Source: Actinospica acidithermotolerans (lineage in GTDB: Bacteria > Actinomycetota > Actinomycetes > Streptomycetales > Catenulisporaceae). Taken from it: a stretch of DNA of 60,391 nt. The stretch covers positions 1 to 60,391 of the forward strand of contig NZ_JAGSOH010000032.1 of assembly GCF_018139625.1 (NCBI RefSeq), in the 5' to 3' direction. The translations under genes and the position numbers were made by a program. The notes under the pieces are model-generated. The model was given only the letters and a program-made list of their open reading frames with translations, did no database searches and was not told where the DNA came from. Below, piece by piece: positions 2,461 through 43,950 of this stretch (position 1 is its first letter; every line of letters begins with the position of its first letter).

Positions 2461-2743
2461 TGACGGAGACGAGTAGCCGCACCGGTTCAGGCAGTAGGAG
2501 AGAGCCGCCCCCAGGCTGAGAGGGCCCGGCACTGCCTCGGTCGGCGAAGACCCTCCCGAGTGCGGGGAGGAACGGAGCCGCCGTGCCGCGCGGCTCCCCA
2601 TGCCCCGCCGGCCGGCCCCCGTCATCGGGCCGATTTCGAGGCCGCCGCCGTCGTACGGCAGCGGCGGCGAAGGTGCGGTGGTACCGCGAGTCCCCTTCTC
2701 GCCCGCACCCCCAAGGGATCACCACACATGTGAAGGCACTGTG
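2461..2743 (+). ncRNA. T-box leader riboswitch, predicted tRNA-Asp specificity
   Basis: The leader shows the hallmarks of a T-box. The AGTA element is at 2472-2475. A lower Stem I helix forms from GCCG/ACCG (2476-2484) with CGGT/CGGC (2538-2545). The helix GGCAGT (2490-2495)/ACTGCC (2531-2536) is next, then AGAGAGCCG and GGCTGAGAG in the apical part. On the 3' side GAA precedes GAC (2549-2551) and CCGAGT, the usual specifier position, so the specifier reads GAC (Asp). The conserved GGTGGTACCGCG is at 2677-2688, with bulge UGGU (2679-2682) to pair with the uncharged tRNA 3' end. CCTTC (2694-2698) can pair with the GAAGG Shine-Dalgarno (2732-2736) and there is no U-tract, which suggests translational rather than transcriptional control. 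The U in UGGU would prefer A73, whereas tRNA-Asp usually has G73 (a G-U pair remains possible). Confidence 0.85.
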
Positions 2744-4069
2744 ATGATCTCCATCCCATCCACCGGCTCCGCGGAGCGGGTCCTGATCAGCGAACTGCCC
2801 GCGTGCGCGGACCGGCCGGTGTCCGTCGAGGGCTGGCTGCACCGGCGGCGCACGCTGAAGACGGTCACCTTTCTCGTCCTGCGCGACCGGACCGGTCTCG
2901 TCCAGGCCGTGCTGCGCGAGCCGCATGCGAGCGCCCTCGAGCATCTGACCGAGGAGAGCGTGCTGCGGGTCAGCGGGATCGTTAAGGCGAACAGGCAGGC
3001 TCCGGGCGGAATCGAACTGATCGAGCCGCACGTGGCCGTGCTCTCCGGCAGCACCGAGCCGGCCCCGTTCGACCTGTATCGGCCGACCGTTCCCGCGACG
3101 CTGCCGACGATCCTCGACCACTCCCCGGTCACCCTGCGGCATCCGCGACTTCGTGCGCCGCACGTGATCGCGGCCGCCTCCGTGGCCGGCTATCGGGCGG
3201 CGTTGGACGGGCTCGGGTTCACCGAGATCCACACGCCGAAGATCGTCGGGTCATCGACCGAGTCCGGCGCGAACGTCTTCGAGGTCGACTACTTCGGCAC
3301 GCGCGCATACCTGGCGCAGTCCCCGCAGTTCTTCAAGCAGATGATGGTCGGCGTCTTCGAACGCGTCTACGAGACCGGCCCGGTCTTCCGCGCGGAGCCG
3401 AGTGACACGGCGCGTCACCTGGCGCAATACACGTCGCTGGACGCCGAATTGGGGTTCATCGACGACCACCGCGACGTGATGGAGGTGCTGCGCGAGGCCG
3501 TGGACGGCATGCTCTCCGCGGTCCGCGAGCGGGCGCAGGAGGAGTGCGAACTGCTCGGAGCGCGGCTGCCCGAGGTTCCAGCGCGGATCCCGGAGATCCA
3601 TTTCGCGCAGGCGCAGGAGCTGCTGGCCGCGCACACGGCGCAGGACCCGCGCGGCGAGCCCGACCTCGCTCCGGCGCACGAGCGCTGGCTGTGCGAGTGG
3701 GCGGCGCGCGAGCACGGCAGCGAGTTCCTGTTCGTGACCGGCTACCCGATGCGCAAGCGGCCGTTCTACACGCACGCGGAGCCGGGCCGGCCCGAGTACT
3801 CGAACAGCTTCGACCTGCTGTTCCGCGGGCTGGAGATCGTCACCGGCGGGCAGCGGCTGCACAAGTACGAGGACTACGTCGCGGCGCTCGCGGAGCGCGG
3901 CGAGGGCGTCGAGGCGTACGAAGGCTACCTGCAGGCGTTCCGGCGCGGGATGCCGCCGCACGGCGGGTTCGCTATGGGGCTCGAACGCTGGGTGGCTCGG
4001 TTGGTCGGCGCGGAGAACGTTCGGCTCGCGACGCTCTTCCCGCGCGACATCACGCGGCTGAGCCCCTGA
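2744..4069 (+). CDS. aspS: Archaeal-type aspartyl-tRNA synthetase (AspS2-like)
   Basis: Class II synthetase that charges tRNA with aspartate. At 441 residues it has the short archaeal/eukaryotic architecture, without the large insertion of bacterial AspRS. An N-terminal OB anticodon-binding domain (about residues 15-115) precedes the catalytic core. Motif 2 is FRAEPSDTARHL and motif 3 is GFAMGLERW followed by ATLFPRD. ATG 2744 follows GAAGG at 7 bp; the frame is open further upstream, but that part is the T-box RNA. Proteins of this type are often non-discriminating (Asp onto tRNA-Asp and tRNA-Asn). It is probably a second copy beside a housekeeping enzyme elsewhere, which could be a resistance or stress paralogue; that is inference. 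Confidence 0.9.
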   Translation: MISIPSTGSAERVLISELPACADRPVSVEGWLHRRRTLKTVTFLVLRDRTGLVQAVLREPHASALEHLTEESVLRVSGIVKANRQAPGGIELIEPHVAVLSGSTEPAPFDLYRPTVPATLPTILDHSPVTLRHPRLRAPHVIAAASVAGYRAALDGLGFTEIHTPKIVGSSTESGANVFEVDYFGTRAYLAQSPQFFKQMMVGVFERVYETGPVFRAEPSDTARHLAQYTSLDAELGFIDDHRDVMEVLREAVDGMLSAVRERAQEECELLGARLPEVPARIPEIHFAQAQELLAAHTAQDPRGEPDLAPAHERWLCEWAAREHGSEFLFVTGYPMRKRPFYTHAEPGRPEYSNSFDLLFRGLEIVTGGQRLHKYEDYVAALAERGEGVEAYEGYLQAFRRGMPPHGGFAMGLERWVARLVGAENVRLATLFPRDITRLSP

Positions 4070-42993: not shown

Positions 42994-43950
42994 CTACGGC
43001 TCGATCGGCGGTGTGCCGTGGGTGTGGAAGGACTCGATGGTCTTCAGGCCCCAGGCCTGGCCCTTGGCGCGCTCGATCTCGGTCCAGGTCACGGTCTGCC
43101 AGTCGGGCGCGAGCAGCAGCCGGGAGACGGGGTTGCACAGCTCGATCCGGTTGCCGCCGGGCTCGTAGACGTACAGGAAGAACGTCTGCTGGATGGCGTG
43201 CTTGTGCGGGCCGGTCTCGATGAACACCCCGGCGTCGAGGAATAGGTCCGCCGCCCGCAGGATCTCCTCGCGGGTGTCGGTGGCGAAGGCGATGTGGTGC
43301 AGCCGGCCCTGGCTGCCGGTCCAGTCCTCGGTGTAGACCAGGTCGTAGGACTTGTTGCCGAAGTGGTGCCACTGCGCGGCGATCCGCCCGTCGTCGAGCC
43401 GGATCTGCTCGCTGGTGCGGGCACCGAGCGCGTCGCGCAGGAAATCGCCGTTCGGCTCCACGCTGGAGGCGAGGAAGTTGACGTGGTCCAGCCGGCGCAC
43501 CCCGACGCCGTGGGCGGGCTTGGCCTCGGCCTGGTTCTTCAGCGCGGGCCGAGAGGCCTCGGGCGCGGTGTAGTGCTCGGAGTCCCAGTAGAGCTCGAAC
43601 TCGTGCCCGTCCGGGTCGCGGAACGCGTAGGACTGGCCGATGCCGAAATTGCCGTCCCGCCACCCGATGCCCAGCCCGGCTTCCTCGATCGCCGCCACCC
43701 GCCGCTTGAGCGCCTCGGCGCTCCAGGTGCGCAGGGCGGTGGTGCGTATGCCGGAGGTCGAGTGCCCGGTCAGGATCAGGCTGTGGTGCTCGTAGTCGTC
43801 GTAGGTGCGCAGGTAGACCGAGTCGCCCTCGCGGGCGCACTCCCGCAGGCCCATCACCTCGGTGAAGAACCGAAGGCTGGCCTCGGGTTCCGGGGTGAGC
43901 AGTTCGACGTGGCCGAGGTGCGCGACCTCGTGGAAAGCGGACGGAGTCAT
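42994..43950 (-). CDS. Type I (VOC) extradiol dioxygenase, candidate gallate ring-cleavage enzyme
   Basis: A 318-residue two-domain extradiol dioxygenase resembling homoprotocatechuate/catechol 2,3-dioxygenases. The metal triad is intact: His156 (RRLDHVNF), His219 (RLHHIAF) and Glu270 (GNRIELCN); Tyr260 (FFLYVYEP) matches the second-shell Tyr. The position of the usual acid-base His appears to be Tyr202 (GNKSYDLVYT). It is the last gene of the gntR-galB-galC-galD operon, 26 bp behind galD. Because GalB, GalC and GalD process 4-oxalomesaconate, the direct product of gallate 4,5-cleavage, and a tannase is linked, I infer gallate or a close trihydroxybenzoate as substrate. Known gallate dioxygenases are LigAB-type and unrelated. 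A protocatechuate- or catechol-type substrate is the alternative. Confidence 0.85.
   Translation of the reverse strand: MTPSAFHEVAHLGHVELLTPEPEASLRFFTEVMGLRECAREGDSVYLRTYDDYEHHSLILTGHSTSGIRTTALRTWSAEALKRRVAAIEEAGLGIGWRDGNFGIGQSYAFRDPDGHEFELYWDSEHYTAPEASRPALKNQAEAKPAHGVGVRRLDHVNFLASSVEPNGDFLRDALGARTSEQIRLDDGRIAAQWHHFGNKSYDLVYTEDWTGSQGRLHHIAFATDTREEILRAADLFLDAGVFIETGPHKHAIQQTFFLYVYEPGGNRIELCNPVSRLLLAPDWQTVTWTEIERAKGQAWGLKTIESFHTHGTPPIEP

Follow-up and report, generated by a model that had tools for sequence, protein, structure and literature searches.

Stem II and Stem IIA/B elements with an F-box are found in many T-boxes, though not in every one, and among the Firmicutes, Clostridium acetobutylicum reportedly places two-codon T-box control on its tRNA-dependent Asn pathway. 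In Actinobacteria, the T-boxes on record in the available text of the relevant papers are those of ileS (PMC1262725, PMC7583486) and of his genes (PMC9413887); the ileS elements are predicted or described there as acting on translation, and that of the Corynebacterium glutamicum his operon is described as transcriptional. Antibiotic producers, in turn, are portrayed in the accessible part of PMC9437257 as carrying protective second synthetases, the recorded pairs being SerRS/albomycin, TrpRS/indolmycin and IleRS/mupirocin.

The stretch of DNA analyzed here (60,391 nucleotides, referred to as the window) contains, at 2461–2743, what our comparisons confirm to be a complete T-box leader with a long Stem I, a Stem II with an F-box, a Stem III and an antisequestrator bearing UGGU. 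We think it very probable that this leader is a tRNA-Asp-sensing T-box, most likely controlling the translation of a spare archaeal-type, non-discriminating aspartyl-tRNA synthetase (AspRS), here termed AspS2. The motifs that a first-pass annotation of the locus had listed (AGTA, AGAGAG, GGCTGAGAG, GAC, GGTGGTACCGCG and the AspS2 ATG at 2744) are all found in the window sequence, and the features of the locus are as follows.

2461–2743, plus strand: whole T-box leader, about 283 nt, directly 5' of the AspS2 ORF
2461–2560, plus strand: long Stem I, from an Rfam fragment and from the consensus structure and covariation of 22 leaders
2465–2468/2553–2556, plus strand: base of Stem I, GGAG/CUCC
2472–2475, plus strand: AGUA (AGTA) element in Stem I, read in the sequence
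2499–2504, plus strand: AGAGAG apical motif, read in the sequence
2514–2522, plus strand: distal-loop motif GGCTGAGAG, read in the sequence
within 2461–2560, plus strand: K-turn-like UGA/GA in Stem I, assigned by eye
2549–2551, plus strand: specifier GAC (Asp), in the specifier bulge, 2–4 nt short of its 3' end
2562–2608, plus strand: Stem II, GCGGGG...CCCCGC, read from the sequence without statistics
2610–2632, plus strand: Stem IIA/B region, read from the sequence
2619–2624, plus strand: F-box CCGUCA, by sequence match to the motif given in the available text of PMC7583486
2638–2671, plus strand: Stem III with purine flanks GAGG ... GAA, from the Rfam alignment of 2638–2706
2673–2708, plus strand: antisequestrator, 99.0% of cells paired, 80.9 bits with model R1, of whose 21 sequences it is itself one
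2673–2678/2703–2708, plus strand: helix A1, GTGCGG/CCGCAC, with covariation
2677–2688, plus strand: T-box sequence GGTGGTACCGCG, read in the sequence
2679–2685, plus strand: T-box bulge UGGUACC, 7 nt between A1 and A2, in which UGGN is UGGU, from the sequence
2686–2690/2698–2702, plus strand: helix A2, GCGAG/CTCGC, with covariation
2691–2697, plus strand: A2 loop TCCCCTT
2713–2718, plus strand: AAGGGA element, with complementarity both to the start-codon region and to the A2 loop, the latter a candidate pseudoknot
2715–2752, plus strand: hairpin GGGATCACCACA / TGTGATGATCTCC of the MFE fold, which spans the start codon and is a candidate sequestrator
2732–2736, plus strand: Shine-Dalgarno-like GAAGG, from the sequence
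2744–4069, plus strand: aspS2, archaeal-type AspRS of 441 aa, NF003483 score 540 bits (cut-off 353)

A covariance search with the Rfam T-box model, proposed along with those motifs, gave a divided answer. At gathering score, which for RF00230 is 93 bits, nothing was reported in a scan of the window or in a scan of 13 related loci. At a low threshold, the T-box model matched a Stem I half (2457–2561, 15.5 bits) and a half comprising Stem III and the T-box (2638–2706, 21.7 bits); the two fragments lie in the correct order and on the correct strand, but their scores are far under 93 bits, and in the same low-threshold scan of the window a chance family, sR53, reached 17.8 bits, above the Stem I fragment. 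The low score says little about the window, because the RF00230 gathering score is reached in none of 148 actinobacterial genomes, ileS leaders included. Folding of the leader as a single sequence does not set it apart from shuffled versions (z = -0.77). With sub-threshold Rfam scores and an unremarkable fold, the case for a T-box therefore rests on the relatives of the leader.

These relatives were gathered by the AspS2 protein rather than by RNA, from 14 of 147 genomes (host included) and as the best 80 of 276 relatives; 94 leaders were read, and since seven of the 80 are duplicate loci of the 14 (identical over 350 nt), they represent 87 loci. A T-box core with GAC is present in 94 of the 94 leaders so assembled, and strict UGGNACC in 76 of the best 80 of 276 relatives, the other four having UGGCACA. 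GAC lies in a long Stem I in 87 of the 94 and in a presumed ultrashort Stem I in the remaining seven, a weaker assignment that hinges on a conserved GGAGTGACGCC string; the hairpin search for ultrashort Stem I is not discriminating alone, in that at several loci, including L159, another GAC hairpin came first or the expected one was unlisted. A by-eye reading finds a Stem II-like element in many relatives, with Actinoplanes-type relatives seemingly lacking Stem II. The leader of G001, from the same genus as the host, is identical to the one in the A. durhamensis record (L102), in keeping with a host that is probably an Actinospica.

The Stem I alignment started from the 58 leaders, out of 94, that fit a script pattern; a similarity limit of <0.90 reduced these to 23, and removal of L127, which has an insertion, to 22. 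Most Actinoplanes-type leaders lie outside this alignment. The RNAalifold consensus of the 22 contains four helices (one basal, two mid and one distal) and a specifier bulge, with double changes at 14 of 21 pairs and 94.1% of cells paired; the four pairs of the basal helix are invariant. Among 45 distinct antisequestrator sequences, double changes occur at five of the 11 A1/A2 pairs and 99.0% of cells are paired. Shuffles, which ignore relatedness, never reached the observed Stem I value on any of five measures (0/500), and for A1/A2 were never as high on four measures (0/500), while 62 of 500 were as high on the fifth, the count of pair types; slid controls also fall far short. Together with the core and GAC shared by all leaders read, the covariation of Stem I and A1/A2 establishes on comparative grounds that the leader is a T-box.

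The gene behind the leader encodes an OB-fold and a class II core and falls in the tRNA(Asn) family NF003483, with TIGR00458 narrowly under its cut-off (356.4 against 368.4). The nearest solved chain, 1n9w/3kfu (E 1e-111), is named a non-discriminating, archaeal-type AspRS 2 and presumably comes from Thermus thermophilus. In an alignment, a His (in GWLH) and a Pro (in APGG) are common to AspS2 and 1n9w, and Trp and Lys occupy these positions in 3nel and 1b8a, which we take to be T. kodakarensis chains. We assume the His and Pro positions to be determinants of non-discrimination, and AspS2 is probably an archaeal-type, non-discriminating AspRS. Of 14 family genomes, 13, the host among them, have a bacterial-type AspRS (TIGR00459) above cut-off, and none has an AsnRS above its cut-off; the lineage thus seems to make Asn-tRNA indirectly. 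With an ordinary AspRS in the host and no AsnRS that passes, AspS2 looks like a spare second AspRS. A second T-box in the host (L001, G000:C35 8976–9233, minus strand), with a Ser (UCC) specifier, lies 5' of a second SerRS; two host SerRS proteins score over cut-off, the T-box-bearing second copy at 358 bits and the other at 428 bits. Both host T-boxes found by R1, an antisequestrator model of 21 sequences that include the host aspS2 and serS2 leaders and the leader of genome G028, therefore sit on second copies, which fits an inducible spare enzyme. A 25.1-bit match to the antisequestrator model elsewhere in the window (43800–43853) is without UGGNACC and was judged a false positive.

Across 393 genomes of the class, R1 matches at E <= 0.001 occur in 31 and AspS2-like proteins in 38; comparison of the two tables places a match just 5' of the AspS2-like gene in 22 of the 38, a count that includes the host and G028, both of which helped build R1. 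Within the same 393 genomes, all 21 close AspS2 orthologues (at least 60% identity, host included) have a T-box. The AspS2-like gene of G028, at 39% identity, also has one upstream. For 16 AspS2-like genes, all of family f33 and at 38–41% identity, no R1 match was found upstream under the stricter filters of this large search, and the T-box core is absent over 530 nt in the eight of these f33 loci inspected (e.g. L230–L237). A T-box in G028 at 39% identity, as against f33 genes without one at 38–41%, suggests a separate gain or a loss.

Two further arrangements were seen in this survey. At G153:C895 201–4739, in one of the 22 genomes with an R1 match just 5' of the gene, a T-box precedes an ORF for the AspS2 N-terminus, the C-terminal part following about 3.5 kb on, which represents either an interrupted gene or a misassembly. 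In two genomes of about 3.2 Mb, G249 (L202) and G400 (L199), an aspS-type ORF follows a related T-box whose Stem I may be ultrashort; a scan of one of these two ORFs, that of L199, scores it as a bacterial-type AspRS.

Among 30 Rfam T-box loci fetched from actinobacterial genomes, 27 are ileS-type and three are AspS2 leaders, the ileS-type call meaning AUC plus UGGU by script pattern, with ten of the 27 downstream ORFs scanned and all ten being ileS. The earlier remark that actinobacterial T-boxes are mostly on ileS thus agrees with these loci. Its companion, that an Asp T-box on AspS2 is unusual, stands insofar as ileS dominates the fetched loci; the T-box at every close orthologue shows, however, that the window is no one-genome oddity.

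The leader likely controls translation. The first-pass annotation had based translational control on a CCTTC/GAAGG pairing, and CCTTC at 2694–2698 is indeed complementary to GAAGG at 2732–2736 in the window; the pairing is not conserved, however, with at least five pairs in 15 of 87 leaders against 9.0 expected, and was rejected as the sequestrator of the family since this is little above chance. By contrast, 49 of 87 leaders have an A1 3' strand plus linker that is complementary to the Shine-Dalgarno (SD) region, where shuffling of the SD windows would lead one to expect 9.1; the loci are related and so not independent. As read from these strands, complementarity between the A1 3' strand and the SD is across the family the classical mutually exclusive arrangement; this anti-SD of the A1 3' strand and linker is absent in the window leader. 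Folding gives the window leader a start-codon occlusion of 0.60 (0.54 shuffled), an SD occlusion of 0.49 (0.54 shuffled) and a paired fraction for the downstream GGG of 0.87 (0.65 shuffled), so that the predicted occlusion of the start region is weak and barely off shuffled.

Transcription attenuation, through a rho-dependent or weak terminator, is the strongest competitor of translational control, and we regard it as unlikely. Long Stem I domains with elbow-binding motifs, as here, are typical of transcriptional T-boxes in the available text of PMC7583486, and the C. glutamicum his-operon T-box (PMC9413887, in its accessible part) sets an actinobacterial precedent. Against this, the ileS T-boxes of the phylum are translational in the portions at hand of PMC1262725 and PMC7583486, and SD complementarity recurs in the family. 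No terminator-like site was found in 2200–2800, which is weak evidence because shuffles give only 0.2.

A further candidate pairing involves the A2 loop, whose CCC faces a downstream GGG in 94 of 94 leaders. The flanks covary, being paired at position +1 in 14 of 15 classes and at +2 in 9 of 15, values matched by 7 and 1 of 10000 shuffles, respectively. Position -1 shows no covariation across the 15 classes, and a duplex-energy swap of loop and downstream strands did not favor the true partners, 1924 of 2000 permutations being as good or better. Because the 15 classes are not phylogenetically independent, the CCC/GGG pseudoknot is a lead only, and the two strands may pair as a pseudoknot or in an alternative OFF helix, or may not pair at all. 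The basal A2 pair is G-C in 86 of 87 AspS2 leaders and G-U in all 27 ileS-type leaders; the G-U is presented, in the available text of PMC7583486, as the primary steric sensor of 3'-aminoacyl-tRNA. With G-C at this position, the AspS2 leaders are not filed under the ileS/glyQS-type discriminator sub-type.

Turning to the tRNA that the leader would sense, the 3' strand of the consensus bulge reads GAA-GAC-(C/A), followed by CUCC, and a specifier placed 2–4 nt from the bulge end corresponds to the default frame of the TBDB paper (PMC7778990, available text). The serS2 T-box of the same genome reads GAA-UCC-A, with UCC in the GAC register, and the serS leader of G033, another genome of the same order, likewise has UCC in the GAC position. 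GAC is therefore the specifier codon. Since UCC stands on serS, AUC on 27 of 27 ileS-type T-boxes (script pattern) and GAC on AspS2, the triplet follows the gene, and the codon in the Stem I specifier bulge of the window agrees with its downstream AspRS. Together with covariation and conservation in other Actinobacteria, the register of the Ser(UCC) paralogue bears out the original proposal of an Asp (GAC) T-box on an archaeal-type AspRS.

A non-discriminating AspRS supplies tRNA-Asn as well, so the leader could in principle be a two-codon or Asn-directed T-box that reads an overlapping second codon (GAA for Glu, AAG, AGA, or ACC/ACA) or responds to tRNA-Asn. In the 58 long Stem I leaders that the script pattern matched, GAC has GAA immediately before it, and AspS2 belongs to the tRNA(Asn) family NF003483, both of which would suit such a switch. 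GAA is, however, retained where the codon becomes UCC on serS and is hence part of the loop motif; moreover, the seven presumed ultrashort Stem I leaders have GAC without GAA in their conserved string, the base 3' of GAC varies (C in 33 and A in 25 of the 58) and the bulge holds no Asn codon. The retention of GAA with UCC and the bulge without an Asn codon led us to judge Glu- or Asn-directed sensing unlikely, and the two-codon or Asn-directed reading as a whole appears very improbable.

At the site for the acceptor end, the N of UGGN is restricted to C (59 of 87 AspS2 loci) and U (the other 28), and by our own reading the host family has G73 at 11 tRNA-Asn loci and at 10 ordinary tRNA-Asp loci, a count from which the odd GUC-anticodon genes L028 and L044 were left out. 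The restriction to C or U fits the G73 of the family tRNA-Asp. In the window, UGGU offers G73 only a G-U wobble, with G73 taken from the family tRNA-Asp as the host gene was not found in the draft; the available text of PMC7778990 permits such a wobble between UGGN and the discriminator. Among the tRNA genes read in the host draft (G000), there is none for tRNA-Asp, tRNA-Asn or tRNA-Phe; this is probably an assembly gap, since in relatives the tRNA-Asp and tRNA-Phe genes cluster with those for Glu and Lys. The odd GUC-anticodon genes are extra tRNA genes located at L044 1489–1562 (G001) and L028 1474–1542 (G009), the former adjoining a tRNA-Ser(GCU)-like gene and an unassigned tRNA-like gene.

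That the leader is a decayed, non-functional T-box retained by chance, as its weak Rfam score, the U opposite G73 and the want of a strong OFF structure in the window might suggest, is scarcely credible given GAC in 94 of 94 leaders and compensatory changes that keep most tested helices, the basal Stem I helix being the invariant exception.

In the tRNA-Asp-sensing switch that we favor, uncharged tRNA-Asp would make two contacts. Its GUC anticodon would pair with the GAC of the specifier bulge in Stem I, and its 3' GCCA with UGGU in the bulge between A1 and A2 (with a G73-U wobble), thereby stabilizing the antisequestrator. So stabilized, the antisequestrator would stop the downstream element (AAGGGAUCAC) from closing over the SD and start codon, and AspS2 would be made. 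Charged tRNA-Asp, by comparison, would be unable to stabilize the antisequestrator, and the start region would remain closed.

The T-box mechanism itself is of a known kind, and the leader resembles the actinobacterial ileS T-box, as depicted in the available text of PMC1262725 and PMC7583486, in its specifier bulge, Stem II/IIA-B, Stem III, A1/A2 UGGN bulge and an SD and start codon lying immediately 3'. The AspS2 leaders differ from ileS T-boxes in reading GAC instead of AUC, in carrying UGGC or UGGU where ileS-type leaders have UGGU in 27 of 27, in the basal A2 pair, in the A2-loop CCC with its downstream GGG, and in their target, a second, archaeal-type AspRS rather than ileS. The C. acetobutylicum system, to which PMC4206432 refers, is likewise said to place a T-box on an extra AspRS tied to indirect Asn-tRNA formation; it is reportedly two-codon, whereas the AspS2 leaders hold a single conserved Asp codon, apparently in two Stem I architectures. 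As with the spare synthetases of producers, a divergent second enzyme stands beside the housekeeping one, and the second SerRS of the host also has a T-box; producer self-protection involves an inhibitor and resistance (PMC9437257, accessible part), whereas for AspS2 a link to an inhibitor, a producer cluster or resistance is conjectural.

A published description of an actinobacterial Asp T-box group was not found in a search of mostly freely available papers, and one may be in print. The terms aspS and aspart are absent from the main texts of PMC3766115 and PMC9413887, the T-box tables of PMC3766115 being supplements. According to the available text of PMC7778990, TBDB applied a model of its own to actinobacterial genomes, and its entries may already include Asp leaders of this kind.

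For the host, AspS2 may serve as an inducible back-up when the housekeeping AspRS fails on tRNA-Asp, be it through Asp shortage or an AspRS inhibitor. The occurrence of the same switch before close relatives of aspS2 in other actinobacteria suggests a back-up enzyme that is turned on when Asp-tRNA charging fails. As an inhibitor of AspRS, microcin C increases the level of uncharged tRNA-Asp (PMC7136475, available text), and AspS2 could by analogy have a role in resistance. More tentatively, and with considerable doubt on our part, the Asp (and Ser) T-boxes of Actinobacteria might form a distinct discriminator sub-class, with a basal A2 G-C in place of G-U and a CCC/GGG pseudoknot, in which binding of the acceptor end would directly free the start codon from the sequestering strand. 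Such a sub-class would serve solely spare synthetases that tolerate inhibitors and are induced upon poisoning of the housekeeping enzyme. The leaders described here add to the actinobacterial T-boxes an Asp-reading group that the Rfam cut-off leaves unreported. The change of the basal pair from G-U to G-C raises the question of how such T-boxes separate charged from uncharged tRNA, and the link between T-boxes and spare synthetases (AspS2 and SerS2) could point to unknown AspRS inhibitors.
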